A DNA stretch of 64,000 nucleotides from Hydractinia symbiolongicarpus (Eukaryota; Cnidaria; Hydrozoa; Anthoathecata; Hydractiniidae). Location of the stretch: assembly GCF_029227915.1 (NCBI RefSeq), contig NC_079878.1, positions 21,601,501-21,665,500 on the forward strand, given 5' to 3'. Below are positions 9,201 through 42,700 of this stretch, in pieces (position 1 is the stretch's first letter; the number at the start of each line of letters is the position of its first letter). The translations under genes were made by a program, and so were the position numbers. The notes beneath the pieces are model-generated. The model was not told where the DNA came from, made no database searches, and worked only from the letters and a program-made list of their open reading frames with translations.

Positions 9201-12200
9201 CAATGATAATATTTTAAGAAATAATTACAGTCAAACCTGTCTATTACGACAAGTTTAAGGCAGGTGAACATTATAGACAAAACTTGTGTATAAAATATTG
9301 CCTACCGGACAAAACATGTAACTGCATGTGCGATCATGTATCATGTACACGTAACCTTACCTACAAGATTAAAATTTTTTACCTTAAAATCTATTTTTCA
9401 GTTCTTTTTCATATGGTTAAAATTACAATGCTCCTTGAACAATAACAATTTCCATGCTCTAACTGTAACACAATCCTGAAGAACATTTTTTTCTTTTGCC
9501 TTCAATATTATTCTAATCTAATATCTTTGTAATCACATTGAGCATATTATAATTACCTGCTTTTGGTAATAGAGAAGTATTGCAGGTAATTTATGTAGCA
9601 GCCAACATTGTGATTTGGGTTGTTCTGGCTTATTTTAGCTTGTTTTGACTGGTTTGTGGTTTTAGTAGTTATGCTTAAAAGTAAGAAGTAAAATAAGTTT
9701 CTGTTGTAACCTAAAATTCTCTGATGTAACTGAAGTTGTTCATGATACTGATGCATCACTCATAAATTATATTTAGTTTCGTTATGGTGACGTACTCGAT
9801 GCTCTGCTTATGTTTATTGCTCTGATTGCTTCCATGGGAAATGGTGTGGCTCAACCAGCATCTTTTGTAATTTTCGGAGAATTAATTGAAGAGTTTGTTG
9901 ATTTCGCTAAAGATATAAATGGAACCACCAGTATTGAGGACACAATGAAAGACTTTGCAGTATATTATGTCTACGTAGCTATAGGCATGTTTGTATGCTC
10001 CTTTTTGCAAGCAGCATTATGGTCCGTCTCTGCAGTCAGACAAATACACAGAATACGAATTCATTTTTTTCAATCCATTTTGAGGCAGGACATCGGATGG
10101 TTTGATGTCAATGAAGGAGGGGGTTTGACATCTCGACTGTCAGAGTAAGTTGATGTTATTTAAGAAATATAAAGTTTAAGTAATAATAATAATTAGTGAC
10201 ATCTTTTATAAAAAAACCATTTTTTCAGTGACCTTACAAAAATGCAATCTGGTATCGGCGATAAAGTTGGAATGACAGTACAAGCATTAACAATGTTTTT
10301 TGCTGGCTTTGGACTTGGGTTTTCTTACAGTTGGAAACTGACACTGATTATTTTGTCACTGACACCAGCTATTATTATTGGAGGTGGAATCACTGGCAAA
10401 GTTGTAGCAGCCTTTACTTCCCGTGAACAAACAGCATATGCTGAAGCAGGAGCTGTAGCAGAGGAGGTGATTAGTTCGATACGAACTGTTGTTGCTTTTG
10501 GGGGACAAGAAGATGAAATAAAAAGGTTAGACTACACGTAATGCTCCATAAGAAAATTTATTACCACCTTCACTTTCAAGTGTTACGTAACAATTGAATG
10601 TTTTCACAGAAAGCTAAAAGAGAAACAGTTTGTAATGAGGGTACCAAATACTACTTTCAAACTTGTCTTTGCTTATATGTTTTTACTTTATTTTTTAGAT
10701 ATGATCAAAAATTGATAGGAGCGGAAAAGGCTGGAATAAAGAAGGGTGCAACAATGGGCGGATCATTTGGATTTTTTCATATTGTTATTTTTTCATGTTA
10801 TGCTTTGTCATTTTGGTACGTGCTTTTCAAATTATTTTCTGCTTTTATGTAAATCAGTGTTGTAAAGTATAATAAAGCTTTAAATATCCATCTAGGTATG
10901 GATCAAGAATGGTTGCTGATGAGGAACTGACATCTGGCAAACTTATGCTTGTTTTCTTCTGTGTTATGATTGGTGCTGCACAATTGGGACAAGTGTCTCC
11001 AAATTTTGAAGCAGTTACAGCAGCTAGGGGCGCAGCATTTCAAGTTTTTAAAATATGTGAAAGAGTAAGTCTTGTTTAAAACTTTCTGATCCTTCTTCGT
11101 TGTAGTTTGTGAATGATATCCACATCCACCATGCTTGTCACACACAAAACTGGCTTATTATTACAAAAATGGAAAATAATCTCAGATTTTTTCTACATGA
11201 ACCAATAGCCAAATTAAATTAATTAGTAAATCTTAATTCTGTGTGACGATTACTGATTAATTCTACTATAAGTTGCATTAACTTCGTTTTTCTAGGTTCC
11301 TATAATAGATTCTTTAGCAGAAAATACAGGAAAGAAAGTTGGGGAAGTAGATGGTAACATTGAACTAAGTAATGTTCATTTCCGTTATCCATCTAGACCA
11401 GAAGTAAAGGTAATGGGTTTTGAATATCTTGTTAAAATGATCAAATCTCATTGTCGTAGCATAAACATAAGAAATATAAAATGTTGATATAATTGATATT
11501 TTAATATGTAATAACAAACCATGTATTTATGTTTGAATTTAGGTTCTGGATGGGTTCAATTTGCTTATTAAGAAAGGTTCAACTGTTGCGTTGGTTGGGG
11601 AATCTGGTTGCGGAAAGAGCACTATTGTTAAGCTTATTCAAAGATTTTATGACACAGAGGAGGGAAAGGTGGATATATATTTTCTGATGTGTAATCAACT
11701 GCTGATGTAGTTTGTGTGTATATGTTTAGTATTATAACATGTGCCTCTCAATATTTAGGTAACTCTAGATGGAGAAGATTTACGGGAGTTAAATTTAAAA
11801 GAGATGCGTTCAAATATTGGTGTTGTCAGTCAAGAACCTGTCTTGTTTGATATGACGATTGCCGAAAACATCAGGTTTGGTGCAAGATTTGGTGCCACTC
11901 AGCGTGAAGTGGAAGAGGCAGCTAAAAATGCTAATGCACATGATTTTATCATGACATTGCCTAAAGTAAGAATATTGCAAATATGTTTTAATTCATATTG
12001 CATAGGCTGGTGTAACTGCTTTTTACACAGTTGAACCAAGAACAGCTCAATTTTTAAATTTATTTTGCCTAAACATCTTTATTTACTAAAAAAGACTGAC
12101 AGTAAAATGTATGTTACCCCTTGATATAGGGTACTCAATAAAAATTAAACTTGCTTGTGCCATTTCTTGATAGAAAGTTGTCCTGAGCACTGGAAAGCCC

Positions 12201-15200
12201 CTATAAAGTTCCAAAGAAGTCATCTTAAATTAAATGCAGGATTCTATTCTGAGATTTAATTCTAAAACTTTAGCTGTTTGATGTTATTTAGGGTTACGAC
12301 ACAAATGTTGGTGAAGGAGGTGCTCAATTATCTGGTGGTCAGAAGCAAAGAATTGCAATAGCACGAGCGTTAATTCGTGATCCAAAGATATTGCTGTTTG
12401 ATGAAGCTACTTCAGCTCTTGACACTGAGAGTGAAGCTATTGTACAAGCAGCTATGGATAAGGTGTGTGTGTTTTCCTGTTTTTATCTATGGTTGCTGTC
12501 GAAAAATTTTGATTTTTTACGACTTTGGAGGAGGGTTTCGATTAGCAGAAAAAATATTATTGTGTTTGTTGATTTTTGAAGAACAATACAATTTTATATC
12601 ACATTCACATTCATTTTTGAAAATCTTGTTTTTTATGCTCAGAAATGTCATAACTACAAAACCGTGTTAAAAAGTAAAATGTTTCGCATTAGGCTAGCGA
12701 AGGACGCACAACTGTTATCATAGCACATAGATTATCTACTGTCCGAAATGCTAGCTCAATCGTGGCTGTAAAAGATGGAAAAGTAGCAGAGATTGGAACG
12801 CACAATGAATTAATGGAAAAACAAGGGGTATATTACCAGCTTGTTTTGCTACAAACAATGGCAGACGAATTGGAAGAGGAAGATTTAACCGAAACAGAGA
12901 AAGGTACTGTAATGCCTTCCAATCTTCAGGTAGAAGGAAAAAACACTCTTATACACGGTTGTTCCTGTTAGAACAGACTATATAAGAACATAAGGCTTCA
13001 ATGTTTTCGAACATTTAAGAACATTTAAGGCTATGCAATTCTAAGGAGTACTGAAAACCATCTTTAAAAATCCAAAAATGTCACTTTTTGAGATTTTACA
13101 CCAACGTGTATTATATTTATTATGTATTATATTACACTTCCTGAAAAAAAAATAATTTTGGAAATATATATTATGGCATAAATCGTCGCCTAGCATTGGA
13201 TCTTTTAACTTGCAATTTTTGTATATATTTAGATGAAATTCTTAAAGCTAAATTTATGCGCAGCATTTCTGCTATGTCTAGTGGAAGCGAAGAAGAACGA
13301 AATGTTTCCGTCAAACTTTCAAAGCAGTTATCTATAAGACATTCGATGAGAGCAAAATCAACAGTTGTATGTTTTTTTCTTTATTTAGTCTGGCTGAAAA
13401 GTTGTAATGAACATTTTATGCCACAAAGATTGTAAGAACTTTAATAAATGTGATAAAGTGAAAATTCTGTAAATAGTTTGTTTAATTTTTAAGTTTTTCA
13501 TCAAGGCAATTATATAAGGATTTATCCAAAAGAATGTTTATCCAAAATAATGGCAAAAGGAGGCATTTTTTGAATAGTGCTTATCCTGATGGACGGGTTC
13601 CTATAGAATTTTTAAGGACTGGGGAAGGACTAACGATATTACAAGAATGCAGGAAAGAATATTGTTAGCAAGAGAAATAAACTTCTTTTATCTTTAACAT
13701 TTTAGGATGTGAAGAAAGACTCGAAGAGTGAAAAGGAAGAGGACTATAAACCACCCCCTGCTGGTATAGGGAGAATTATGGCTTTAAATAAAACAGAATG
13801 GCCTTATTTAGTTGTGGGTGGCTTTTTCAGTGCTATTGTTGGTGCCTTTCCTGTAGCATTCGCCGTTATACTCAGCGAGCTTCTTGTAGTAAGTATGTTT
13901 TTTTTAAGAAATATTAGGTCAAACAGCAACAGTTTACAGCTTCCAACATTCTGTATCTTGTCGTTTTTTATTTGTTATTGTTTGGGACGTGTAGAGATAA
14001 GTTAACTTTAAAAGAGTTTGCAACGGATCTTCTCAACAACCAATAAAAATCACGAAAGGGTTGCCATCTTTTGTGTTATGCAGATTGAGCGTATATGCCG
14101 ATGCTGGGAAGGATTTGCACATAGCTTGTTTTTTACTTTTAGACTTTTACAAAACCACCTGAGCAAATGAAAGAGGAGTCACGGAAATGGGCGTTAGGGT
14201 TTTTAGCCCTGGGTGTTGTGGATTGCGTATCATTATTTTTCTCTGTAAGGAATACATTTTTTTACGAGCTATGTCTAATCACAGAAAATGAAATTTTAAA
14301 AGTGCTTCTTGTTTTTTAGGCTTACCTGTTTGGGATAGCAGGAGAAATTTTAACCCGTCGATTAAGGAGAATGACATTCACAGCGATACTGAAACAGGTA
14401 TTGCGAATTGTCGTAATGACGTTTTTTAAAAAATGTTTTTAGATATTTTTGGTTTAACATTTTGTGATTATTCTGAGTATAAACGCATTTTTTTAATAAG
14501 AATCGTATTTTTTTGTGTTGTTTCAAGAAAATCGACATTTTGATTTTTAAATAATTCTTAAAAGTGATTCTTAAATAATTGTTAAAGCGCTTGACCAAAG
14601 TTGAAACTGTTGGAGAATAAGATGACATTAAAACACGGTTGAACGAACAAGGAAAAGACTTACACTCTATAAAAACCAATGTTTAACACATTTTCAAAAT
14701 ATGCATGTTTGGTTATACACAGCTATATTATTCTATGTATTTAGTTACTTCTGGGAAAATATTTTCAAAATGAATAAGTTAAATTCTTCGAATTTTGCAC
14801 AGAAAAACAAAATGGTGTCCGATGATAGAGCCTAAAATTTTAGAAATCGAGCTTCAATCTTTTTTAATTTTTTTACATCTTTCTGCTTCATTTATTGTCT
14901 TGCTTCTGTTTTAACCTTTGTTGGATAATTTTTTTTGTAGGAAATTGCATTTTTTGACCATCCAGATAACAGTACCGGAAAATTGACAGCGAGACTTGCA
15001 ACTGATGCATCAAACGTGAATGGAGTAAGTTCGCCTCATAGCACTACACTCGTTGTTTTTCCCTAGTTAACCCCGGACATAATGCTTGTGAAAAAGGCAG
15101 TTTTTTAGTATTTCTTGAAATGGCCAAACAGCCTCACTTGGCCGGTACTCTGCAGCCAGTTAGCTGAAAACGTTTTACCTTGCTAGGGATGTAGCCCGGT

Positions 15201-18200
15201 TATCAACATGTCCGCATTATGAAACAATCCCCCCGAAAAGAATTAACAAAATCGAGGAATTGGGATGTGCGGACGTAGCAAAAATAATTAAAACCATCTA
15301 AGATTTTGGATCTAACCAAATAACCAAGTTCTAAGCCCACTGTAAACACCACAAGTAAACATGGATAAGTTCGAAATGCGTGTTACTTGTAAAGAAACGG
15401 CTTTTCTGATATTCACAAGTTGTAGTAATAATACCTATGTGTAGTCTTCAATGTTCTTTAGGCTACCAGCAGTCGTTTGAACACGATGATACAAGTTGTA
15501 TTCATGTTGTTGTTAGCTCTGGGCGTAGCATTCGGTTACAGTTGGAAACTCACCTTAGTGATTATCGCTTTTGCTCCGTTTTTACTGTTTGCTGGTGCAG
15601 CTCATACGAAAATTTTCACAAGCTTCGCTGCCGAAGAAGGTAAAAGGCTAATTCATGCGAGTGCTTTGGCTAATCAAGCTATTATGAACATAAGGACTGT
15701 CGCTACGATTGGAAGGGAGAGCTACTTTATTGAGAAATATACTGAACTCATTGAGCAACCGTACAGGTACCTTGTTTGAGCTTGTTTATTTTTATTAGTA
15801 TTTGCTTGCTTGTTTGTTTGTATGTTTGTTTATTTTATTTGCTTTTCCTTTTAATTGCTTTTGTTGTTATGCATATTTGCTTGTTTAGGCAATCTCTTCG
15901 AAAGTCTTTTGTTTTTGGCGTTACGTTTGGTTTATCGAGCTCACTTATGATGTTAGCGAATGCTGCTGCATTTTCTCTCGGTGGTAAACTAGTGCAAGAT
16001 GAAGAAATAACATTTGACGAAATGTTCAAGTACGATACGCGAATCTCTCGTTGTTATTATTATTATTATAATTGTTATTTTTATTGTTAATATTACAAGA
16101 TCGCGTCAAGGGCTATATGAACACGTAGTGAAGGCACGTTTGAACGAAACTGTTTTCAGAAGTGCGCCTTTCTAATATTTATCAAACAATATATGTCTTT
16201 GTTTATAGAGTTGTGTTAGCTGCAGTGTTCGGCGCGATGATTGCTGGTCAAATTGCTTCATTTGCTCCTGATTATGTTGCGGCTAAAGTGTCAGCTGCTC
16301 GTATCTTTAACCTGCTTGACCGTGTTCCTGCTATCAATGCTTTTAGTACAAGTGGATCTCGTCTAGTAAGAATAATTTGTTACCGTAACGTAAACGTATT
16401 GTAACGTTAACCTATACAGGCGTTACCAGAGCGTTACTGACAAAAACAGGGTTGGTAACTAAACAGGTTTTGAAAGAGGGTTGATAACCAGACATTTGAA
16501 AGTGGGTTGGTAATTGGACAGGTTATTAGAGAGGATTGGTAACCAGTACAGGCTTTAGGGAAAGTGTTGGTAACCAGTCGACTTTAAGTGACAGGATTTC
16601 AGAGAGAGAGTTAATAACTGGACAGGTTTTAAAAGAGGGTTGCTAACCAGACAGTTCAGAAAGGGCTGATAATTGGACAGAATATAAGAAAGGGTTAGCA
16701 ACTAGACAGACTCTAAGAAAAAGCTGATATTTAAACAGGCTTTGATTGAGGGCTGGTAACCACTACAAGTGGTTGGGAACTAAACGGGCTTTCAGAAAGA
16801 GAGAGAGAGAGAGCTAGTAATCCAGCAACCTTCGAATGGTAAGCAGTACAAGCTTTGAGAGAGCGTTGGTAATAGTACAGGCTTTAAGATAGAACGTTTC
16901 AGTGTTATTGCATTGCCGCTGAGGTCTTTTTTTAAAACTTTCATAAAAACTATTTTTAGGAGAAAGTTGATGGACACATCGACTTTGAAAGTGTGTCTTT
17001 CAACTATCCAACTAGGCCTGACGTCAACGTTCTGCAGCAGTTATCATTTGGAATAAAATCGGGTCAAAAAGTGGCGCTGGTTGGCGCGTCTGGGTGTGGC
17101 AAGAGCACCAGTGTTGGATTATTAGAAAGATTCTACGACCCCTTTGAAGGAACAGTTAAAATCGATAATCACGACATCAAAGATTTCAACGTCAAGTGGT
17201 TGCGTTCGCAGCTGGGTTTAGTGTCACAAGAACCAGTCTTATTTGCTCGCAGCATAAAAGATAATATTAAATATGGTCTGGACGAGGAGATCGCAGATGA
17301 GCTAGTCCAAGCTGCAGCTGAAAAAGCCAATATACACGGTTTTATTTCAAACTTACCAAAGGTTTGTGCAATCTCTATCTGTATTTTCCAAATACTTATT
17401 GTTATCATACGGTATGATAAACAAAGCAGCAACGCTTACAGTAACCAAACAATTTTAAGTTCCGATGTAAAGGTGGGTTTACAGTCTATTCGTCGTAGAC
17501 GTGCGAATAAGGGGAATACAAAATATCGTTGCAAATGAAAGAATGCAGTTCACACTAGCGCGAAAAATAAAACAACTGCACATACTGAATGAGTCAGTTA
17601 TTTTTTAGTTTGGTACCAGCAGTTTTACACTATTTCAGCACATTTCAGCACTTTTTTATTTATTGATATTGATACTCAATATTATACTTAACAATCAGAT
17701 ATTCAATATTGCACTCGTTTTCTATTTTGAAATCTGATTGGTTAATAAATTCCCATTCGCCGTGGTAGTTGAACTTATTGCAACTACTGCGACGAATGCT
17801 GGCGAATGAAAGAAAATAACGTTGTATGCTTAAAATAAGTATTGCGCATGTGCAGATTCATAAACGCTTATTCGTGCGACTACGGCGAATGAAGTGTAAA
17901 CCCCACTTTAATGTGTGACATTTCCAATATATCTTTTTTGAGCTACAAGGCGGAAAACTTTATCATATAAGGAATGATTTATTACTAATATTATTTCACT
18001 TTTTTTATTTAATATTTCTTTTTTATTTCAGGGTTACGATACAATGGTTGGAGAGAAGGGAACGTTGATTTCAGGCGGTCAGAAGCAACGAATTGCAATT
18101 GCCCGCGCGTTGATTAGAAATCCCAAAATAATGTTGCTTGATGAAGCTACTTCAGCCCTAGATTCAGAAAGTGAAAAGGTAAAACGCATGTTATTGCGTT

Positions 18201-20780: not shown

Positions 20781-21152
20781 ATGATTCGTCTCAAACTCGC
20801 TTTATAGCGCTAATTCAAATGAAGAATGTTGGTCATTGATTTTGCTTGTTAAGAAGTTTAAGGATTAGCTATAAGTTTTCATACAAGAAATTCTACTTTG
20901 GAGATGTGAAATATCGACTCGCGAAATTCAAGGTAACGTAAATGGCGAAATAACCGCCCAGCGGTTTTAAACTGAAACGCTTCTTAAATCGCTTCTTAAA
21001 AACGCTTTTAACGAAGAACTTAGTGTAGCTTAGCTTTATTTCGGCAGAATATTGAAAAATAAAAACAAAATAGAAAAATTTTTTTACACAACCTTCTCGA
21101 ATTAAATTTCATCGAATTGAAATTTGGGGCGTTTTTTTCAAAAGGCCTTCAT

Positions 21153-21199
21153 CACGGCTGTTTCAGCTAGCGAGATTTCGGAAACTCAGACTGCGCATG
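21153..21199 (+). repeat. Left terminal inverted repeat of the RAG1-like transposon
   Basis: Outer 14-bp block CACGGCTGTTTCAG (21153-21166), a 12-bp spacer (21167-21178) and an inner 21-bp block (21179-21199) beginning CGGAAACT and ending CTGCGCATG. The blocks match the right end with one mismatch in 35 positions; the spacer does not. Confidence 0.88.
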
Positions 21200-21632
21200 T
21201 CAAAAAAAAATTTAAAATAAGGACTGGGGCGAGTTGCGCTTAAAAGTAAACAAATTTTAGGGTAGCTAGCACCAGGTTTAATAGGCATTTTAATCACATA
21301 AACCAACTTAAGGACTGGAAACTAAGTGGTTTAAATAAAATATAGTCCTATACCAATAAGATTAATTCAAATACAAAGCTATTCGCTTGTTGCCTAGCTA
21401 AAACAAAACAAAAACTTTCAACCTCCATTTTGAAGACTGTGGACACCATGCCAACTTAAAGCAAAATATTTTCAGATACGAAGTTATCCCACAGATAATT
21501 TTTATAAAAATCATTCCAAGATAGTTACGAGATACGAATAAAAAAAGAACTGTAGGTGTATCAGTACATTACGAATTGATATTGTATCAAACATTAGGTA
21601 CTTTTTTTTCAAAATTTTTGTTAAAGTTCAAG

Positions 21633-24600
21633 ATGGCTACTGGGGATTTACACCTAGCTCGGTTGAACAAGCTGTGTCGAATATGTGGAAACACTCTGCC
21701 TGGACGATCACATATTGTCCAAGAGCACATAAAGAACTTGGACAGTATTTTCAGAGCTGATTTTTATTCTGATCGGGCAGGCATTCACCCAAAAAAATTC
21801 TGTCACTCGTGCTTTGCTACAATAAGTAATGTCCTAAAACGTGACTCAGCTACCGCTATTGTGCCTGTTAAATGGTATACACATAAAGACACCGAGTGCA
21901 AAACATGCATATTAAGTGCACAAAAAAAGAGAGGTGGCAAACCTATGAAAAGAAGGGGCGGTGGTAACCCAACACACAAAGCTGTGGATTCCGCAGAAAA
22001 AACTTGGACACCCCTAGAACTTAATAAAATTTACAGAAAAACCTCTGAACTTTTTGACTATAGTGGAAACGTTCTCTCAGACATAAATATCAGTGAAGGC
22101 AACTGGGAACATCTGATTTGTGCTTTGTGTAGCAATATTTTAAAAAGGCCATTAATGATAAACCAATGTAACCACGTGTTTTGTGCCTTGTGTTTAACAA
22201 ATTGGTTGGAAAATTCAAATAGATGTCCCACCTGCAGCATCCCAACAACACCCGGGGATGTCTCGCCTGGTTTGTGCATTTCCAGGATTTTAAACACACG
22301 AGTTGTCAAGGGAACATGTGGTTGTTCATTTAAACTGCTGTCTGCACAATCGCACACATGCTCTCCAGCATTGTCATTTACAACACTAGAGATGATGCAG
22401 TTGAGCCCTTCCAAGCCTGTACCGAAAAAGGTAGAAGAATGCATTGCTCATGTGGTTGGAATAAAAATGCAGCAGTCAAACTTGCCGAATAAAACTGTCC
22501 AATTGCCCAGTGGAAGTTCACAAGTAAGATTACTTATGTATGGAGTGGACTCAGTAAAAGTGATTTGACATTGACTTTTTTTAACAAGCAACTGATTTTC
22601 AAACGGCTGATAAAGCAAAAAATTTTGATCTTAGCAATTTTAAGGCTGAAATCAAAACTGAAAATAAGTTGCTTTTGTATATGTCTATATATGTGCATAC
22701 CTAGGTTATCATTTTTTTACAATTCCAGTGAAATGTTTCTTATACACATTTTTTATACAAAAAACAAGCCATAATAAGAACAAGACAAATTTTAAAATGT
22801 TCAGAGTAAATAATTAAAAATAATAATAAATATAAGTAAGTGGCTAGAGGGGTCACAGAATATAGGAAGTTTTGGGGGTCAATAAAAACCATTCTATATA
22901 TTAGGAGATTTACTAAAATTTTGATGTGCCCACCCTAAATGCTAAGGCGTCTACATCGTTAAGTGATCTTATATAAAAAATGTGTATAACTACTTTATAC
23001 AAAAATACAAAACTATGCTATGTTATATTAAAAATAATGTACACATAATTGTCTGTAACAATATGATAATTTTAATAGTAATATTACATTTTACATAAAA
23101 CAAATTAATAACATATGTTCCATATTTTAGCCATTGACAATAACACCCATTAGAATTCCTCGCAAGTCTTCTGATGAAACATGTGAAAGGAATGTGCGGA
23201 AAAGAGCAAATACAGCCAAGGAGTTAATCCATCTGATGTCTGGTGAAGAAACCCAATCTGTCACAAAACAGACCACAGCACTGCTAAAGTCTATGGAAGA
23301 AAGTGACAGAAATACTATCATTAAAAATTTGGGTACAGAAGTCATTATTCCAGCCAATCACATCACAGCAATGAAATCAAATTTAAACATGCCATGGAAT
23401 CAACTACGTGAAATATCACGTTGGTTGAAAACATTCAACATAAAAATTGAATCAGAAAAAAAAGCAAGAAGTGTCGCTGCTGAATGGGTAGGCCAAGGAC
23501 TGAGAGTTGAGCTGGCTCCTCTCACCAAATTATCAGTTGGAAACAGGGTATCCGTTATACCTAGGCCCTGGGGGTATCTGTATAATGTAGTTGGCCACAT
23601 TCTGTATCAACTCAAAAAGCTAGAATGTCACAATTTACTTGTAAAACATAGTTTCATTCCTGACAATGAGATCCATGTTAAAATTGGTGGAGACCATGGA
23701 GGAAATAGTTTTAAAATGGCATATCAAATAGGCAATGTTCTAAACCCAAACAAGAAGGAAAACACAATAATGTTTAGCATTTTTGAAGGTAACAAACATT
23801 AATGCAATATATTACAAATATGAAAAAAAAAAAATTAAAACTGGAATTTCCAAAATTCTATGCATGTGATGTCTAATTGTGATCTAAAGTAGAAATGATC
23901 TAAGTGATCTAAAGTAGAAATCAAAACATTTTTTATATTTTTTTTTTAAATTAGGGAAAGACACAAGAACAAACTTAAGAGTCTGCCTTGAACGGTTTCG
24001 ACCACAAATAAAAATGCTGCAACAAGTCAAATATAAAGAGTCGATATTCCGTGTATTTATGTATGGCGACTACGAATTTCTGTGTGCAATGTATGGTATA
24101 ACTGGTGCAAATGGTAAATATTAATTACTTAAGATCTGGGGCAAGTTGCTAGTTGATAATCAAAATTAATTAATTTTTGACCACAAATAAAAATGCTGCA
24201 ACAAGTCAAATATAAAGAGTCGATATTCCGTGTATTTATGTATGGCGACTACGAATTTCTGTGTGCAATGTATGGTATAACTGGTGCAAATGGTAAATAT
24301 TAATTACTTAAGATCTGGGGCAAGTTGCTAGTTGATAATCAAAATTAATTAATTTTTACAGAACTTTTTTTGCAACTTCATAAAGTTCCTGTAGTTTAAC
24401 AATGGGTTTTTACTACGCAGATATGGGAAATGCATAGTTAAAAATGGTTTATTTTTAAAAGTTTCTAATAAAATATGTATACTTTAACATTTGTGTTTAG
24501 GGCGTCACAGCTGTTTGTTTTGCAACATTACCTCAAAACTAATGAACATCCCAGTGTTTACTCGCAAGAAATTTAAGAAAAGGTCACTGGCGACACTTGA

Positions 24601-26277
24601 AGAAAATTTAGCAGATTTCCGTGAAAGTGGTGGGAGCCCTAAAAATGCGAAAGAATTTTATAATGTCATTGACAACATATTTTTTGACATACCTATTGAT
24701 CAAGTATACATCATATTTTTATGCTTTTCCACTGCAAGTTGATTTAATAATCCCAAAATAAAATCTATATAAACACCTAATTTTAGGTCTGTATTCCTGG
24801 TCTTCATATTTCCTTGGGTGTATATCAAAAGATGTTTAAAATGTTTGAGTCTTCTTGCCAAGACTATGATGTAAAAATAGCTCTGCTGTTGGCAACAGAA
24901 GACAATGAACTGGATTCAGATTATGGTGACTACATCGAAGTCCTTAAAGAAACAAATGACTTGCAGCAAAAGCTGGAAGATGAAAAAGCCAAATTAGCAA
25001 ACCAGCAAGATCAGTTAAACTGGCTTGTAATATCTGGTGGCTTACAACGAAATATACTGACGTACGAGAAAAGTATAATAAAAACTGAGAAGAAAATCAC
25101 AGAATTAGAATTAGAAATCTCAACCTTGGGAAACAACAAAAGAATTTTAGTGGGTATGATCATTTTTATTACCTAAGTAATTTTTTGTGATATTCGCAAA
25201 TGTTTTTTTGTCTGGAAATTCCAAGAAATTTAATTCCCGAAAAAAAACTTTCCAAAATTATAATTTTCATTCTGATCTTATGATGCAAGCCTTATATTCT
25301 CTCCAATCTAAAGCTATGTTTAATAGTTTGTTCATCTTATTTTAGGTGTTGGTCCTTGTGCTTCTTCAATAGATAAAACGCTGCAAAAAATGGGTGTTGA
25401 ACGTCAGGCCTACCATGGCCAAAGTTTTATCGGCAACCATGTACATAAATTGCTAAAGGTTTGTTAATACTAACAATAATGTAGCAATTTAAAAATAACA
25501 TATTTAAAGAAAATTAAAAAAACAATCTTGCTCTTATAGAAAGAAAACATCCAAAATTTAACATCCAGCATTAAAGAGATTGTTGCAGCACAAAAGCATG
25601 ATGACCAGCTTATTCACAGTGTGAATTTAGAAATGGATAAGTACGACATGTTATTTACTTACTTTGCAGAAGTTCATAACATTTACAATTCGGCAAAATA
25701 TCTGTCATGTGAGGAAATACTGGCTTTAGGTGAGAAACTTGTTCCTTTTTTTAATAATAAATAAGTTTTTTTTAAAATTTCATGTGCCAAAAACAAAACA
25801 AAAAGAAAGAATAATATACATATAGTACATAATTCTAGAAATTTCAATTAATAAATTCATGATGCATCTGCGAACTAACTGGCCAAAAGTTAATATTTCA
25901 CCAAAACTGCATATGCTTGAAGATCATGTCACTGAGTTCATAGCAAAATGGAATGTTGGATTTGGGTTTTATGGCGAACAAGGTAAACAGCCACTTAAAT
26001 TTGTAACCTGGTAACACCAAAATTTGTGTTTTTTACCAAAATGTGTTATTTTTCAGAAAATGTGTAGCTAGCTAGCTTAAATGTCAAATTATAACATTTT
26101 TAAGGTGGAGAAAGCTTGCATCATGAAATCAACAGGATGTCGAGCAGGTACAGCTGCATCAAAAACCCAGTCGAGCGGTTACGAAATACATTAAAGCAAC
26201 ATTTTGTTAATGTAAATCCTGAATCGAGCCAATTAAAACCAAAAATTAAAAAAAGAAAAATTGCACGTGAAGAATAA
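21633..26277 (+). CDS. RAG1-like transposase, 965 aa, 9 exons
   Basis: Probable DDE recombinase that cuts the element's CAC ends in the nucleus. Exons: 21633-22523, 23131-23788, 23955-24113, 24501-24703, 24787-25153, 25346-25458, 25540-25729, 25839-25982, 26105-26277; all GT-AG, in phase, no stop. The start ATG has good context (AAGATGG); an in-frame ATG at 21576 is less likely. The N-terminus has the RAG1 zinc pattern C15xxC18, IHP(51-53), FC57HxC60, W81, H84, C89xxC92. A RING follows: C163, C166, C179, H181, C184, C187, C198, C201. Core: D485 in GGDHGG (RAG1 D600), D555 in YGDYEFL (D708), zinc pair C574xxC577, GQSFIGNH near 785, zinc pair H885x4H890, E911 in GEQGGES (E962). A predicted coiled coil lies near 665-755. 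Length is close to RAG1 (about 1040). Residue equivalences are by eye from recalled RAG1. Confidence 0.88.
24000..24357. repeat. 179-bp tandem duplication covering part of transposase exon 3
   Basis: Copies 24000-24178 and 24179-24357 appear identical. Each holds the 3' part of exon 3 (encoding RPQIKMLQ through ITGAN, including catalytic D555), its donor site and some intron. The second copy lacks a splice acceptor, so splicing from the first donor (24114) to 24501 still yields the intact protein. It is either a very recent duplication or an assembly artefact. Confidence 0.85.
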
Positions 26278-26588
26278 CTTTTAGACTTACAGCTTAGATA
26301 GCTAGTTATATCTTTAACTGCATATTAGCATTACTTTGCAAGCTCCTTTAGTCTTTGCATTATTTCAAAGGTGGATCAGCTGGTCTAGAAAGAAAAAGAA
26401 TTGAACAGTTAATTAGCTTACTACATGCATAGTTCATTTTTATTTGACTTTTTGTCGAGCTTACGTTAGTAGTGTATGAGACGCAGAAACCTTATTTAGA
26501 GTTACAGAATTGTTTATATAGAATGTTGTTTAGTGTTGTTATTCTGTGAAATATTAGCTTAGTAAACTACAACAGTTTTAATGCCTAC

Positions 26589-26594
26589 AATAAA
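26589..26594 (+). terminator. Poly(A) signal AATAAA of the transposase gene
   Basis: A canonical AATAAA lies 312 bp after the transposase stop and inside the transposon, so the element can supply its own transcript end. Confidence 0.45.
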
Positions 26595-27068
26595 TCATAC
26601 AGTAGATTATGTCAAAGAGGGAGTTAAAATTTTCAGGTTTTACACTAACTTTTATTGCCAGAATTCAGCGCTCTAGCATTCTTTCAGAAGTACTGATACA
26701 GTTTTTTCGTTTTTCTTACCTTGTAGATGAGCCTTTCAGCTTTCCAAAAATATATAATACACCAGCCACATAACTTCGCAACGTCCACAAAACCAAAAAT
26801 TAGTTGGAACAAGTTGCCATGTTAATTTTAACAAAAAAAAGTATGCCTTCAAAACTGCCACAGTATTACTCCAACAGCATGCTTGTCGCAAAGGTAAAAG
26901 AAAGATTTAGCTTCCAGCGTGTTGAAATGCTTTAAAAAACTAAATTAAATCCACTGAAATAGATTCTATCATGCAAAAGCGATTTCAAAAAGTTAGTTAC
27001 TTATTTATCATGATTGTTTTTATTTGCGCCCGCCATCTTGCGCCTCAACGTGGCCGTAATTATTGACG

Positions 27069-27105
27069 CATGCGCAGTCTTAGTTTCCGCTCTGAAACAG
27101 CCGTG
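27069..27105 (-). repeat. Right terminal inverted repeat of the RAG1-like transposon
   Basis: Read inward from 27105 it repeats the 14-bp outer block exactly, then only a 2-bp spacer (27090-27091), then the 21-bp inner block (27069-27089) with one difference from the left end. The right end is thus 10 bp shorter between its two blocks. Confidence 0.88.
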
Positions 27106-27365
27106 TCATTAGAAATAATTTTTTAATCACTCCACAAGGGAAGGCGATTTTCCGAAAAATTCACTCCTGCCTTGCTACATTGAGGAACTCTTTATTTATC
27201 TTTCTTTAGCCTGATTAGCTAGTTTTAATTTTTTCAATAATAAGTGATAGTTAGATGTGCATATTTTACATGGCTAGCCTCACAAATATCGAGGGATATA
27301 CCCTGTCTAATTATTTCCATGACTTAGATAGAGAGTCCTAGAGTATTTAATACTCTTTTTGATTA

Positions 27366-29941: not shown

Positions 29942-32900
29942 TAAAATCATCAAAAGCCGATTGTATGGAGCTAAAACGATCTTGTATTTTTGCTCAATGT
30001 AAACATTTCGGGCAAAATTTTCGAAAATCAGTTTTAATATTTAATTTGAACCCTGTATTGGATACTACATTACACAGAATTATTGCTATGTTTACCTTAG
30101 CGTCATACAAATTGGGGGTCTGGTGCATATAGCTAAATAAACTGATTACCAGAAGTGGCTTGCGTAAGTTAATGTATGAAAGATTATCATAGGATGGCAA
30201 TTTCTTTTAGTGACAAAGTATTTCCCTGTAAAATTTTAACCAATTAGAATGCAAACTTCAGTGTTTATTCTTTGAAAAATTAATAACTGAAAATAATTCA
30301 AAATAACTGCCTTGTTTTTAATACCCAAAAGAGTGTTTACATTAGTATTTTAAATTTGCCACATGTTTTTGTGCCTTGTGTATCAAAACAATATTTTGCA
30401 GCTATTTTGCTACCAAATTCCCTATTCATAATTTGTTTTGTGAAAATCATGCTTTAGACATTATGGATTGATGTTGTAAAAACGTCTTAACAAAAAAAGA
30501 GTGACACTATTATGAGGAGTTTAAAATAACTGTTTGGTGATAGATCGTTCAAACCTCTTTTTATGTTAAACAATTTTTTTACACCTTTCAAAGGTGTGTC
30601 TTTGCAAGGCAGTTTAAATGTTTTACTTGATGTGTGGTGCATTTTTATACTCACTTATGTGGAATACAAGTTTTCAGTTAGTTAAAAAAAAAGAAAAGAT
30701 CAGCTGAAAGCAGTAAAGAAAAAACTAAAATTTTGTTGATTGATTTCAGGCACTACCCTGTCCAATCTTATCGCGATGATGATGGTGACTATGGAAATCA
30801 AAGCTATGGTTACAACTATCGAAACTATAGAATGCCAAATGAAACTGGCATTAAGGGAAAAATCGAACAAAAGTATTGGCGGTCGAAACAAAAGGTGATA
30901 GAAAAACTTGGCAAAGATCAGGATGAACATGTGATTGCAGGTGATGCAGAAGTTGATGCGAGATTAGAGGTACAGAGTTTGTCACAGATTCTTTTGTTGA
31001 AAGGTTTTGACTTTTATTTATTTATTTTTCCTGTTGATTGTGAACCTGTTGTTTTGTCATAGGCTTTTCGTCATATTAAAATGACTTGCATACAGTTGAT
31101 GGCAGCCATTGAGTTTTACCAGAATAAAATATTTGGTTAGTTAATTATCATAGCTGGTTAACATTCAAATTCATTTTGTTTTGTTTTTTATATCATCTTT
31201 ATTTGTTATGTTTGATCGTAGCTCTGTCACAAGATGAGAACGAGATGGGACGTTTTTTACGTGACCAAGGTACAACAGATAAAACAAAAGCTGGCAAAAT
31301 GATGATAGCTGTCGGTAAAGCACAAAGTTTTGCTGCTCAACAAAGGTATAACCATATTGTGTTTTGTTACGAAAAGTTTCAGTGGTGAATATCACGAACC
31401 TGCAAAAAATAGAAGTGTGACTGGGGGAAAACCAAGCAAATCTACAAGATCTTTTTAATATCCTCTTTTTAATATTATTATTATTATACAGAAAATCCTT
31501 TATTGAAAATTGAAATCTGCATTTGGTAGGTGTTTGGAACTTGGGGTCAGAAATTATTTTATTTTGCTCAATGTCAGTGATGAACCCAATGTGAGATGTT
31601 TAATATAGTAAACCTGTACTAGCTTTCCAAAAAGTTGAAAAAGATTATAGATTGAGTGGCAATTGACCCACCACCTCTCTTGCTTGCCCTTATGGTATGT
31701 CGCAAAGAGGATCCTTTGTTGTTTACAGCACTTGCTTGGGAAATGATTTAAGATGAAAGGCCCAGTCGGTAGAGTAATCACTTCGCAAGCGAGTGGGCGT
31801 GGATCCAAGTTTCAGTTGATCTACCTTATCTGTTTCAAAAGTAACCATATAAAGCTCATTTCTATAGATTGTGTCTGAGATCTTCGCTAGCTCGTTTACA
31901 TGCTGAAATGGAAACGTTTCGATTTCGGGCTATCCAAGACACGCAGTTGACAGTGGATAAGATGGAGCAAGCGCGTTCCGATTACAGAGCCCGACTGCTG
32001 TGGATGGCAGATGTATCGAAAGAACTAGACCCTGATCATTACAAACGACTCGATAAGTTTCGCGACGTAAGTGATGGTGTTGCTGATATGTTTTGACGGA
32101 AAGTGTGTTGTATGTGTATTTGAAACGCGTTATAATAACTAGAGGAAAACTCGGGGAAATTTTTGAGATGCTTTGGCGGGATATCAACAAAAATGAAAGG
32201 GGATATTTATATACTCGACTTGAGGGTATTTTCCTGGCATTTTATATTCTAAGCCTACCATTTACAGATGCTAGGTTCACATTTTGTAAGAAACAGTGTA
32301 AGTCTCTGAAATAGTCAAAAACTGCACAATGATGAATGTACTACGTCACTGTATCGCATTTGGATTTATTTTTTAGGTGCAATTTCAAGTAAAAGCAGCT
32401 AAAAAATTATTCGATAAATTAAAAGGAGATGTGATTCAAAAAATCGACCTGTTATCAGCGAGTAGATGCAACCTGCTCTCAGCCACTCTAGAACCCTATC
32501 AAGCTGCCATGGTGAAGTTTTTAAGGTCAACTGCGAAGAGCTACAACGAAGTCTATCAACAATATCAGGGCCATCCCTCCTATCAGTTCAACATACTAAA
32601 ACACATCATTCCAAACAACGGCATTGTTGACGACGACGATGAAGAAGTGGAAGAGAAACGTAGGGAGTCGAAAAGGCATAGGAATAAGAAAACGAAAGCA
32701 ATCGAGCCAGCGAAAGAAGTTACTGAACAAGCAACGGAGGAAGGTAATTCGAACGTAGCCGAAGATAAGTTAATATCGTTCGATTCGTCACCGAGTGAAG
32801 AGAACTCTGCTGCTCTTCAAAACGTTCAAAGCATAAATACTCCACAACAACCACAAGAAGACTTGCTGGGTGGGTTACACCAGTCTGAAGATATCAGCCC

Positions 32901-34055
32901 TGGATTTGGTGATTACGCATCAGATGAACGTACAAAGATCGGTGAAAGCGGTAATTATGCTTTGATATTGTGTTTCTTCTTTATTAGTATTTTTTTGTAT
33001 TTTATCACAGTAGGGAAAAAGTAAATATAAGTGAACCCAAAAACTGTCTAGGATGAACAAAAAATAGCCAAGCTCAAATTTTATTAAGTACGATTTTGTG
33101 TGGATTTTTTTTTAAACGCGTTTGGTTTGTCTATTGTTAAGTGAGTTTAGAGCATAGTTCTAACGAATACAAGATCACTGATAATATTTCCACAGTGGTA
33201 TAGCTGATTTACTAAGTTCTCTAAAGCGATTAAATTTACTGGTACACCGGAAATTACACCATTCCACGTAATTTCAATTTTTAGGGTTCGAGGATCTTCT
33301 TGGGAAATTTGAAGAAAACAACCTTTTAGCAGGTACTATCGGCGAATCAGCAGAAACTTCCTTGCTTGGTGATGTGAAAGATGGCGGATTTGCACAGCCA
33401 AAAGGTAAGTTGTTTTCTTGGCCTACGTCTAAGTCTTCGTAACCGCCCCTGTCCTCCAACCCCGCCCTGTAGTGTATTTCTCGCTTTTTAATTACTTGGC
33501 GTATATGGATATTTATGGATGCGTTTTTTCTTAGCTCCTGCTACCCTTGCGCCGTCCGTTGACGACTTGTTATTTGGTTCACCGTTACGTCAAATCGACG
33601 ACGCACAAAAGTCGGATCTCGATATTTTGTCTGACGTGCTTAACAACCAGTCGTTAGGAATAACAGAGACAGAACACAATGATTCGTTCTCTGGTCAGTG
33701 GCAATCGATGTTCGGCGCTCAAGATGTTCCAGATAACAAACCTACGGATGAAAGCGTTAACTCAGAAATAGACGTCGACACGAAAAGCGATCAGATGTTT
33801 ATGCCGTCATTTTTATTGGATCAAATGCGTAAAGCTGACCCTGTAGCTATGACGCAAGGCGCACCTAAGGGTTTCACATCTGTAAAGGACTCTGATAAAG
33901 TTAGTAAGACACCTCCGCAATCCCGTAAGAGTAAGAAAAAAGAAGGCAAAGATATGTCAGCTTGGTTCAATTTATTTGCTGATCTCGATCCTCTCGCTAA
34001 TCCAGATGAAGTTGGAGCTACAGCAGAAGCGAGTGACGGGAAACAAGCTTGTTAA
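29259..34055 (+). CDS. ICA1: Islet cell autoantigen 69 homolog (AH/BAR domain protein)
   Basis: ICA69 is a peripheral membrane protein that partners PICK1 and Rab2 in Golgi and dense-core-vesicle trafficking. Exons: 29259-29278, 30750-30969, 31063-31135, 31222-31345, 31868-32066, 32377-32950, 33285-33404, 33535-34055 (TAA). They join in phase to 616 aa; human ICA1 is about 480, the extra length being a longer low-complexity tail. The arfaptin-homology/BAR domain spans roughly residues 40-290, with EQKYWRSKQKVIEKLGKDQD, LSQDENEMGRFLRDQG, DKTKAGKMM, METFRFRAIQDTQLTV, KELDPDHYKRLDKFRD and LLSASRCNLLS. The acidic, Ser-rich ICAC tail carries DDLLFGSP, FMPSFLLDQM and the conserved terminal block MSAWFNLFADLDPLANPDEV. 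The 20-nt first coding exon (MYQGGQ) is the least certain part. The next gene, KIF26, is convergent. Confidence 0.92.
29871..29943. repeat. (TTA)n microsatellite in ICA1 intron 1
   Basis: An uninterrupted TTA/ATT trinucleotide array of more than 20 units lies in the first intron of ICA1. Such a run is expected to be polymorphic. Confidence 0.95.
31750..31815 (+). repeat. tRNA-like sequence in ICA1 intron 4
   Basis: GGCCCAGTCGGTAGAGTAAT resembles a tRNA D-arm and A box. TCGCAAGCGAGTGGGCGTGGATCCAAG recalls an anticodon arm and a decayed B box. It does not fold into a complete cloverleaf by eye and is best read as a SINE head fragment. Confidence 0.4.
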
Positions 34056-36774: not shown

Positions 36775-39700
36775 TTATATACCAGTTATATCGAGATTGA
36801 GTTTTGCAAGTTGTGCGTTATATTCTATGGATGGAAATTTATCCAAAGCCAAATGAAGCTCACTTTTCAAGTATTCTCGATGCTTTTTTAGTTCTTCAAT
36901 TCTTCTTGGCTGGATTCTGGAAGTCTAAAAAACAAAATATGTTGTTGTTAAACTATAAGGATCCATAAAGAACTTCTTTAAATAAAAAAATTAAGAAACA
37001 TTAATGCCCCCTACCATGGCATCCTCAGATTTGCAACGACGTCGATTCATCTGCGCAGGAGCGTCAATTTCATAAACTTTAATTTGCACTCCTTCGTCAT
37101 CAGACTGACATCTTCGACTGTCAAACCACATTGGTTTTTTAACTCGCCCTCGTGTTGAAGACAAATCGTTAGTCGATCTCCTACGTAGGCCTAAAAAGCG
37201 TCTCTTCTTCTTAGTGCTGGCGACAGATTCGTTATCGGTTAAATCTTCAGCACAACTCGTCATCCCACCGTCAGTTATTGACGTGTCGTATCCACTGCTA
37301 TGTCCGTCGGTGTACAATGACGATTCTAGATAAAGAAAGCAATTGGTTTATTTATTATATCCAAAGCATCATAACTTGTGTCGTTTCTTTTAAAGCCTAA
37401 TCCTAAGTTTACGGCGAACGACCAGCGTACATTAAGGATTTACCGATTCTTCACGAACATTAGTTCAATTCCGTACGTCAGTATATTTTCCGTCGTGTTT
37501 TAGGACGAATACTAAACTTACTCGAGCGCGAAAAGAATCTGTATCTTCTGCTTGAACGAGCGGATGAATCAGTAACGTGACCGTCACTCATGTACCCGGA
37601 GGAGGAGCGTCCTTTGCGGGACTTGTGACGCCTGGAAAGAAATACGTTTTTATTAATCCAAATACAAAGATCTATATGTTTTGCTCAAACCGAGTCAATA
37701 AAAAGGGTATTACTTACCCAAACAACCACAGCCTTGATCGACTGCTTGTATCTTTTTCTATAGTGGTGTCATCCATTTTAACCTCCTCTCCGCTGTGTAG
37801 GGAAGGTGTTTGACTTTGTGACGAGTTTGAACCAATACCACTGCTGGCATCGCTACAACCTGACATTCTTTTATCCGATGAATTTTTCTGTTTACGTTCC
37901 GATTTGGGAGACAACAGAGCAAATCTTTTACGGCTTTTCGGAGATAATAGCTCTTCTGAGTTCGCGAGTTTTTTATTCGTCTTGGGAGATAAAATCTTTT
38001 TTTCAGTTTTTGGTGATTTTATGGAAGACTTTTTCGGCGATGCAATTATTCTTGCAGGCTTCGCTTCGCTATCAAGGACTACAGCGTTTTCTTTCTTTTT
38101 GTTTTTAGAGTTTGTATTTTTGTCTGGTTTAATGTCTTTTTTGTTTTCGTCTTCTTCATAAACGGTCGACCAACGATAACGTAAACGTGCCGGACGTCCG
38201 GACTGTCGCCTAGTTACTGACGGACTGGCAGCATATGACGTCGTGTCGCTGTCATAGGCGTCACTCTCATTCGCCGACACAAGACTTATGGTGTCATCTT
38301 TTGAATACGATCTTTGCAGTTGTGGTGTCCGAAAACCTAGATTGTCTAAACTTGTCGAGCTTCCTTTATAAACTTTTGTGTTGGAAATATTTGCCGCTCG
38401 GGACGAATTTTGACGAATTTTTGGCGATGAAACGAAATCTCGAAGTGGTGGCTTCTTTGTAACCGAAAAATTAGGAACCGCTGAAACAGTTATAACGTGA
38501 TTCAGATCTTTAATTTTTGGCTCTTTCGTTTCGTTTTTCGTGCAGAAGTCATCGCCGTTTTCCTTTTCTCTCACAGCAGGACCGTCAACGGACGATTCTC
38601 GAATACAATCTGTAACTGTCGATGGCGGGCCGTCAACAGAAGATTCTCGCAATGAATTCGTATTTACATCAGAAGTAGCTTGAATGTTTTTGTTATATAG
38701 AACTGACGTAGAAATATGGTCAGTACTCGACTCATTATTTGTTTCGAAACTTGTATTTCCTTCTAGTTTTTCATTGAAATGTTCTTTCACAACTTCGTCG
38801 AATTTCTTATCCATTTCTTTTTGTCTGACAGTCCCACGAACAATTTGAACAGGCTTCCTATAATTATTTTCCGGCGCTGAAATATATCCGTCGTATTTAT
38901 TCGATTTATCGTACGTGTCGGTAATACTCTTACAAATGTCGGATGTATATCCGTCATTTGAAACTAGATTCCGTTTGTTTTTTATATTGACGGAAGTAAG
39001 ATCATCGTTACTTAAAGACTCTTTTAATAATTTCGCTATTCTTTTTTCTCTTTTCCTAAGTTCTTTTTCTGACGGTATTTTGTCGACGACATCATCAGTG
39101 ATATCATTATTTGGCATCAAAATAATATCGTCATTATTCCGACTTTCAATCAGTTGGTTTACAAGTGAAGTTTTAGTACTATCCGTTGACGGACTAATTG
39201 TACTCGCAGCCGTCGAATTTTCTTGCTTTATAACTAACGGCGCGACGACGTTGACTGCTTTCTCCACATTCGACGTTTCCATTATCTTCAAGGGGGGGAT
39301 TGCATCAATTACGTTCGTCAAAACTTCCAATTTATTTCTCTTTAAAGGAGTCTCCTCCGCAGACTCTGATGTCAGCTCTATTGGTTCATTAGTCTCATCT
39401 TCCGAACTGGATGCAAGTTTTAATCTCATCGCCCTAAAAGTGTCCGGTGAAGGAGGGCGTTCGTTGTCCGTTAAATCGCGATCACTCAGATGACCGTTCG
39501 AACCCATATATATAACCGTATCACAAGAATCTTCTCCAGCACTGGAAGTGTTATAATCAGAACTGAGGCCATTATCGTCGATACCGTAAGTTTGGACAAT
39601 GGCGGGATAAGGTCGCCTTCTCCGTCCTGTTTCATCACAGGAATTGTTATCTGATGAACTACTACAATGCTGTAATAAATAAAATGAAACAATGTCATTG

Positions 39701-42700
39701 TTTGAGATACCAAAACAATATTATTAAAAAACAATGCACGTAATTGTTAATATCTAACTACCTTATTTCTTTTTCTTCTCGATCTGTTGATTTTAGATGT
39801 TATCTGTAACGTGTTGTAGGTCTTTCCATAGTTCTTTTCATCTGCCGACACGTGAGTGATGAGTGTAGATCGGCACGTCAAATTTCCGATGGAATCCTTC
39901 AACAACCTCGTAATTTTACTATCCCTATACGGAACCTGTTTGAATCCGTTTAACATAGCTACAATGATTTGCCCCAATGCTGCATGACTCGGTGCTCCAC
40001 CGTGCTGTATGTTGCGGAAATTTGGATTAACGTGACTTAAATCTATTAAGTGTAAACGGGACCTTCCACCAGAGTAGGGTACAGCACCTAATGTAGAATA
40101 GGTTTTAGTTAGGTCAAGCTGTTGCAGAACAAAACTTATCGTGACAGAGCTGCGGAATTAAAGTTTTTGTTTTGAGAGTCGAAACCAAAGGAGATATGTT
40201 GTCATCAATTTCATTTATGGTTTAAAAACAGTATTAACGTCTTTACTACGTTTATAAATAAGGTTTTAAAAAAAGATCTTTACTCATGCTTCTGGAATTC
40301 GCAGTTATGAAGCAAAGGTGCTAAAAGTTACGACTTAATGAATCGTAAAGTAAACAAAACCACGAACACGCGAACTCACTCAAATAACTCAACAAACAAA
40401 TAACTTGTAAAAACACATTGAAAATGTGACCACGTAGTACGTTATTTAACCTACCGCCAGGACCGCGTCTGTGGTTTCTTTCTACTCTGTACTGGTAAAC
40501 ATGAACAGTAAATATCATGTGACTCGATTGCCTCTGTCCAGATTCATCAGTTTCTACAAACAATTTTGTCAACATACAAAAAACATTCCGTGCCTCTGTT
40601 ATTACACATATGGTTGCATAACAATTCACTAGAATCATTTCATTTACGTCAAGCTGCTGAATTTTTTCTTACATAATAGAAACCTTGAGTAAATTGACCT
40701 TGTTTCTGCACAGCATATACGGGAGAGTATCCATACCAACCGATTTGTGAGAACACAAAATGTAGGTTTGTGCTGCTAAAATATTTTTTTACCTGTAGTT
40801 CTAGCAGCCAATGCAGCGTCTAAATAAAAAGCAGCTTTCTCCGCAGAGACTGCTTGTGGCTCACTAACGTTACTCAGTTGCACGGTGCCACCTATCGGGT
40901 CTTCCCGCAGGTAGACACCTGGGGAGTCTCCCGTGCTGTCCATGCTGTCGGCACCTGTAAGAACCAAAGTTAAGGTTGTGTTAAAAATAGAAATAAATCG
41001 AGCGCCGTAACTTTAGCTATGCTTAACTCAAACTTTTATTATTTACCTGATGCTTGATCGGCTAATAAATCCTTCAAGTTCTCTGTTGATCCGACTACTT
41101 CAACCGCGGACACACGCACGGAAATTCTAGCGCCTGTTCTTTGCTTGCAATCTTCGAGAAGACTATACAACCAAGCAATTGCAGCTGGTAGGATACCAAG
41201 ATCTTTGTTTGAGTTGTCACTTCCTACCATCGTTGTGGTTTTCCCGGTCGCAGACGCTCCGTATGAAAGGAGACAGCCTTCTCCACCGTTGATGACGGCG
41301 TGAAGAACATCAAGCACGGAGGTGGATGAAACTCGAGTCTATAGAAGAAAATAAAAACGTAAGCCTACTTTAATTAATTTGTTATAATCAAAACCAAAAG
41401 GTTAAGTCACGTAACACTTACCTGAGAAAGATCAGGCTCAAAAATCCCATCAAAGGCGTATAATTTCGGTGCAGAGTTGAACGATTGAAATTTCGAAGGC
41501 ACATGCTCTAAGTTTTTCGGCTGTAGAACGGAGATCTGTTTGCGTCTCTGATCAACTTCAATAAACGAGTCTGTTTCTTCTAAATTCGTGTTTGGTGAGA
41601 TCCGTAGCATGACACTAACCTATAAGTTATGCAAACGAAAAATTAATCTAATAAATAATCACAGAATTTAACATGAAATAACTGAAAAAAGCATTGTGGG
41701 AGAGTGCACTTATATTTTATCGTTATTACAGGCAAATAAACAAATACAGTTAAATCCAAATCACTTACTTTGCCATCTACTCTCCTCCCCATGTACTTAA
41801 ATAAACCAGGCGGGTTGGGTGGAGGATCTGTTCGGAGAAGATAACTGAAATTTGTTGGAAATAAATCATCTTCGCGTCTGTGTCTCTTCTTCTTCTTTTT
41901 GCTTGGTATGTTGTACTTTTTAGCAGCTCTAAATTATTCGTATTTATCTTAAACACCGCACATTGTAAACTTGCTTCACTTAGACAATATCAAATTAAAG
42001 GTGAGCATTTTTACTACGAAATAAATCTTGCTTACTCAGCAAAAAATTGAGCAGCTGTCGGAGATGCCGTTGAACGAGCTGGAGGTTCATCTCTCCCTCC
42101 TCTGGTTTCTGACGACGAGGAGTGTTGTGTATTATTGAGTCCTATAAATCAACAAATAACAAATTAGAGGCTCTAAATATTTTGTTTATTTGATGAATTG
42201 ATATATATTTATATGGTTACGAACCTTGCACTCGTTTCCCGTTCACGCTGTCTGTCGTTTCCCCATAACTTGCAACAGGCCTCCCCATATTTGCAGGATT
42301 GTTATACGGTAGAAGATTGTGACTTTGTGGCATGTTTCTCGTCATAAACGTCGCTTGTATCACAGCATGCTCCTTGATCGATTCAATATGTGTTCCACAA
42401 TACGTGCAGACTCCGTTTACTGTGCCAATCAAGTGGTGTTCATTCAATTGCAAATTTTGGTAGACGAGAAGCGGTAGGCTATCAAGCTGTAATTACAACG
42501 AAAAGATCAAAACAAAAATAATATAAAATTTTGTTTGCATATCACTCTTCTGCAAAGCGAGACAAAAGAAAGTGACAATTGACACCTCTATTATTCAAAC
42601 ACTTGACTCTGTTGACAAAACTAGAGTAAGAAGCTTAAACTTTTAAAACATTAACGCATTCAATTTATAGTTCTATGTCAATAACTTCGTAGCTACCATA

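Follow-up and report, generated by a model that had tools for sequence, protein, structure and literature searches.

Chapa domain, RING and DDE core combined in a complete and very probable Chapaev transposon of Hydractinia symbiolongicarpus

The DNA analysed here, a window of 64,000 nucleotides from the genome of the hydrozoan Hydractinia symbiolongicarpus (contig NC_079878.1, positions 21,601,501 to 21,665,500), contains a cut-and-paste element of 5,953 base pairs (bp) at positions 21153-27105 of the window. The element is very probably (at roughly 0.93) an autonomous Chapaev DNA transposon, whose enzyme carries a Chapa domain, a RING and a DDE core. This domain combination is already known, and the element is a complete, well-preserved example of a RING-bearing Chapaev. 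Chapaev transposons were reportedly treated by Kapitonov and Jurka (2007).

The outer 14 bp of the element, CACGGCTGTTTCAG, are the same at both ends and form a perfect inverted repeat (CAC...GTG), flanked on either side by the 4-bp sequence TCAT, so that the CAC-starting inverted ends and TCAT duplication described in an earlier note on this DNA are borne out. A scan of the whole window with CACGGCTGTTTCAG, allowing up to two mismatches, returned two matches, the two ends themselves, where 0.23 were expected. Perfect 14-bp inverted pairs that start with CAC, lie 1-12 kb from each other and are flanked by a 4-bp repeat were also sought: the window has one, and 60 windows simulated with a Markov model of the same composition have none. 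Each end also contains a 21-bp inner box, 95% alike between the ends, which is separated from the outer box by 12 bp in the left end and by 2 bp in the right end. This 10-bp difference, about one helical turn, is reminiscent of recombination signals with their 12/23 spacing, although in a single copy a chance insertion would explain it just as well.

The gene within the element is made up of nine exons with GT..AG borders, which join to give 965 codons and a stop; no stop or frameshift is found in any of the nine. Aligned homologues bridge the exon joins with the reading frame unbroken and, because related proteins cross the joins without frame breaks, the model of a 965-amino-acid (965-aa) gene of nine in-phase exons given in the earlier note is right. 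The element contains no RAG2 gene, as had also been proposed: the region 26278-27105 has no overlapping open reading frame (ORF) of 70 aa or more on either strand, and the longest minus-strand ORF within the element, of 129 aa, lies antisense to exon 1.

The encoded protein is built of three parts, each homologous to known domains. Its core matches DUF1280 (PF06918) over aa 373-540 (Pfam, E 4.3e-15, 56.4 bits), the RING covers aa 163-201 (E 1.9e-11, 44 bits) and the RAG1 importin-binding family PF12560 is matched over aa 38-103 (E 7.2e-6, 26.2 bits), all above the respective cut-offs of 25, 27 and 23.3 bits. The Chapa/RAG1 N-terminal zinc region extends over approximately aa 7-92 (21651-21908), and the cysteine/histidine cluster following the RING is shortened to C229, C231, H241 and C243. 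Among structures in the PDB, RAG1 was matched over aa 38-229 (E 4e-11), with the N-terminal region and RING in the same order; the top single match was a two-RING chimera, as expected of any RING. A profile built from eight N-termini matched the RAG1 N-terminal structure 21wb with an E value of 1.9e-16. When homologues were sought with only aa 1-240 as query, none of 399 candidates gave a hit, and the N-terminal relationship therefore rests on these profile, Pfam and PDB comparisons. The model of exon 1 has a mean predicted local distance difference test (pLDDT) score of 54.5, with block means of 64-90 in the first 100 residues and low confidence in the RING and linker; Foldseek returned no matches for it at E<=0.001 (345 at E<=10), and 21wb is not among the best 50 of these 345, in a library that may lack 21wb. 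Directly after the Chapa domain lies a basic GGRP/GGKP-like stretch (aa 101-108, 21933-21956), present in varied form in all seven relatives inspected (P0001-P0007) and followed in four of them by a second GRPK/GRPP; it resembles the GGRPR sequence in RAG1 and motifs of the AT-hook kind.

The catalytic residues D485, D555 and E911, the zinc ligands C574/C577 and H885/H890, and the motif L643-H644 are all in place, and D555 is 19 residues from C574. The earlier note had placed the catalytic residues and ligands, and this 19-residue gap, at the same positions; the RAG1 residue numbers used for comparison are its own. In an alignment with 14 relatives, D485 is conserved in 14 of 14 and D555 in all 13 rows reaching the site, C574/C577 in 11 of 12, L643 in 11 of 11, H644 in 10 of 11, and H885, H890 and E911 in 7 of 7. 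A RAG1-type core fold is predicted for a relative approximately 45% identical to the window protein. The union of a RAG1 N-terminal zinc region, RING and RAG1-type DDE core in one enzyme, as given in the earlier note, is supported by the Pfam, PDB and profile matches and, for the core fold, by this relative. A long helical insert in the core, residues 543-613 of the model of P0001, matches helical hairpins of unrelated proteins. NCBIfam searches with P0001, P0005, P0006 and P0010 gave no family reaching its cut-off.

DUF1280 is described as comprising transposases of Chapaev transposons, in the same clade as RAG1 (PMC3985635), and the hallmarks given for Chapaevs are 3-4-bp duplications, CAC/GTG ends, and the motifs C(2)C, LH and H(4)H (PMC4079192). 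All of these hallmarks, with a duplication of 4 bp, are present alongside the DUF1280 core, and on these grounds the element is identified as a Chapaev. Kapitonov and Koonin (2015) equated the Chapa domain, named from lancelet and sea anemone Chapaevs, with the N-terminal part of RAG1, and described two Chapaev subgroups in which Chapa is followed by RING (PMC4411706). Compared by description with such Chapaevs, the element shares the Chapa domain, RING and DDE core in one gene, the CAC/GTG ends, the 3-4-bp duplication and the C(2)C, LH and H(4)H motifs, and no essential difference is seen. The non-bilaterian setting, which the earlier note held to bear on the origin of V(D)J recombination, is not new, sea anemone Chapaevs having been published and Hydra being included in the tree of Kapitonov and Koonin (PMC4411706). 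A table of the Hydra viridissima genome paper gives DUF1280 counts of 13 and 31, by legend order for H. viridissima and H. vulgaris (PMC7642931).

Several points weigh against this assignment. The element is read from one copy at the DNA level; likeness to Chapaevs was judged by published descriptions and DUF1280; the core fold was modelled on a relative; and the match of the whole-protein family profile to the core of amphioxus RAG1L in the PDB has an E value of 0.15. In addition, a recent 179-bp tandem duplication (23996-24174 and 24175-24353, with one mismatch) may reduce correct splicing of exon 3. The earlier note had reported no disabling change, which holds for the exons, free of stops and frameshifts, and is qualified by this duplication, which repeats the end of exon 3 and its donor. 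The second, identical donor, if used (splicing from 24292), would cause a frameshift and a stop after 572 aa, with loss of the C2/H2 ligands and E911, so that the copy might be recently dead, complete in structure and faulty in expression through this or other changes. This is rather unlikely, given that the first donor is intact, that normal splicing keeps the duplicate within the intron and that the exons are undamaged; such damage would affect the condition of this copy and would not conflict with its being a Chapaev. An intact frame of 965 codons would also fit the domestication of a Chapaev transposase as a host gene, a reading made very improbable by the two ends and perfect target duplication, as expected of a fairly young insertion, by the position of the insertion, with genes for an ABC transporter and for ICA69 on either side, and by a 99%-identical relative of exon 1 that points to further copies or alleles.

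The earlier note regarded the element as a stand-alone relative of the ancestor of the RAG recombinase, whereas its DUF1280 core, 4-bp duplication and C(2)C/LH/H(4)H motifs make it a Chapaev. RAG1 and the RAG-like (RAGL/ProtoRAG) elements do share with it a homologous N-terminal zinc region followed likewise by a RING, a core fold (predicted in a relative), the DDE residues and C2/H2 zinc ligands, as would a RAG-like element that had lost RAG2 and was a direct relative of the RAG ancestor. However, RAGL and ProtoRAG have a convergent RAG2-like partner and a 5-bp duplication, whereas the element has no partner and a duplication of 4 bp. Its core sequence is of DUF1280 type, with the long helical insert; no RAG1 core family is among the 17 Pfam families listed for the window protein, with matches up to E 1; alignments with DUF1280 proteins show 28-49% identity and cover 46-99% of its own length; and the RAG1 sequence match to the core is not significant. 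Such an origin is thus extremely improbable, and the reading as a close RAG-like element is rejected because RAG2 is absent, the core is of DUF1280 type and the duplication is 4 bp long. CA..TG ends (in most cases) and C2/H2 ligands are reported as common to the EnSpm-Mirage-Chapaev-Transib clade (PMC12730594), and the CAC ends and C2/H2 ligands therefore do not set the element beside RAG1. Transib (HzTransib) is described as without the N-terminal region and with 5-bp duplications (PMC8355894, PMC7204232), unlike the element, and RAG1-RAG2-like pairs are reported in cnidarians (PMC7204232; PMC9435367). The Chapaev group is separate from RAG-like and Transib elements; the enzymes RAG1, Transib and Chapaev share one ancestral transposase, from which the element represents a side line and not the ancestor of RAG. 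The N-RAG-TP of Aplysia, said to be the work of Panchin and Moroz (2008), is likewise a mobile element, of a mollusc, with the RAG1 N-terminal region. By description, it consists wholly of N-terminal-like sequence (PMC8355894), unlike the element.

Searches of a collection of 5.8 billion proteins yielded 15 relatives (P0001-P0015). P0011 is from H. symbiolongicarpus (57% identity over 30% of the query), P0010 is from Branchiostoma belcheri and P0006, by its identifiers, is presumably from the sponge Sycon. P0015 corresponds to exon 1 and the first intron codons, is 99% identical with three aa differences, and represents four sequences, so that raw data seem to hold additional copies or alleles. 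The core tree contained 15 rows, the window protein and P0001-P0014, P0015 having no core. In it the RING-bearing window protein falls in a clade of nine, in which all four other members with an N-terminus (P0001-P0004) lack the RING. With four truncated rows excluded, and with automatic gene models that may miss a RING exon, the three RING rows need two changes on the tree, as do the eight RING-less rows, two of which (P0009 and P0010) also lack the Chapa domain in Pfam; shuffled labels did equally well in 106 and 114 of 500 cases, and nothing firm follows on gain or loss of the RING. A scan of IMG/VR for viral carriers, made with one pattern from the relatives' profile, gave four pattern matches, none of which was confirmed. 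Chapaevs are described as passing between species (PMC4079192), and kinship among the transposons is therefore weak evidence about their host.

The Chapa region of Chapaev transposases and RAG1 could be the same domain as the insect ZAD domain, an identification that we hold tentatively and at slightly less than even chances; within the literature library searched, the likeness looks new. The fold predicted for aa 9-73 appears similar to that of ZAD, and its four cysteines, spaced as CxxC...CxxC, may correspond to those of ZAD. Matches of the N-termini alone to zf-AD (PF07776) all fall below its curated cut-off of 28 bits, the best being P0014 (21.6 bits, E 2.5e-4), followed by P0007 (17.3) and the window protein (12.4). 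The profile score of 16.6 bits was reached by none of 1,000 shuffles with the cysteines kept in place, the highest of which scored 13.5 bits. Five of the eight alignment members have no zf-AD match, nor does a ninth N-terminus, P0003, and full-length scans found none in the window protein (E<=1) or in any of 10 relatives (E<=0.05), including P0007, P0014 and P0015. The comparison with a single ZAD sequence in hhalign (29% probability, E 5.8e-4) also counts against the identification. ZAD proteins are C2H2 transcription factors of insects, not transposases. If the identification is correct, the zinc module by which RAG1 dimerises at its N-terminus and the ZAD module heading insect transcription factors would belong to one domain family, possibly carried into host genes by such transposons.

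By analogy with the RAG1/Transib fold, two molecules of the transposase would dimerise, and the dimer would bind the inner and outer boxes and pair both ends. The D485-D555-E911 site would then cut beside CAC, and the excised element would be joined to its target at positions staggered by 4 bp. Dimerisation, zinc-dependent at the N-terminus, is the probable role of the Chapa and RING parts, and the RING perhaps transfers ubiquitin, both as in RAG1. The element provides a clean, complete member of the transposon group that has the three components of RAG1 in common with it. It agrees with the view, already published, that these components were united before the split of RAG and Chapaev, leaves the origin of RAG unchanged, and is a candidate for biochemical comparison of hairpin formation, stagger and the role of the RING.

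Table 1. Positions in the window of the parts of the Chapaev element.
Feature	Position	Strand	Remark
Left target duplication TCAT	21149..21152	.	sequence
Left terminal inverted repeat, with outer box (14 bp) and inner box (starting CGGAAACT) separated by 12 bp	21153..21199	+	
Exon 1 (297 aa): Chapa/RAG1 N-terminal zinc region, basic GGKP stretch, RING C3HC4, post-RING cluster	21633..22523	+	
Exon 2: transposase core begins, DUF1280, catalytic D485	23131..23788	+	
Exon 3: catalytic D555	23955..24113	+	
179-bp tandem duplication, one mismatch	23996..24353	+	repeats exon-3 end and splice donor
Exon 4: C574 and C577 (C(2)C)	24501..24703	+	
Exon 5: LH motif (L643 H644), predicted long-helix insert begins	24787..25153	+	insert inferred from P0001 model
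Exon 6	25346..25458	+	
Exon 7	25540..25729	+	
Exon 8: H885 and H890 (H(4)H)	25839..25982	+	
Exon 9: catalytic E911 (QGGE), stop codon	26105..26277	+	
AATAAA, possible polyadenylation signal (function inferred)	26589..26594	+	
Right terminal inverted repeat, with outer box (14 bp) and inner box separated by 2 bp	27069..27105	-	
Right target duplication TCAT	27106..27109	.	sequence

Elsewhere in the window, the ABC transporter gene (9777-18175, ending after approximately 18175) encodes two nucleotide-binding domains, and 105-nucleotide stretches of its halves are 80% identical. The ICA69/arfaptin gene lies on the plus strand at 30682-34055, starting from approximately 30682. On the minus strand, 37714-40157 holds a kinesin motor fragment beside a 668-aa ORF that matches no Pfam family at E<=0.01. 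Scans of the whole window with Rfam, at its gathering thresholds, and for tRNAs returned nothing. A 131-nucleotide inverted repeat of 97% identity (49415-49545 and 51033-51163), its arms separated by 1.49 kb that hold no long ORF, is probably another non-autonomous element.
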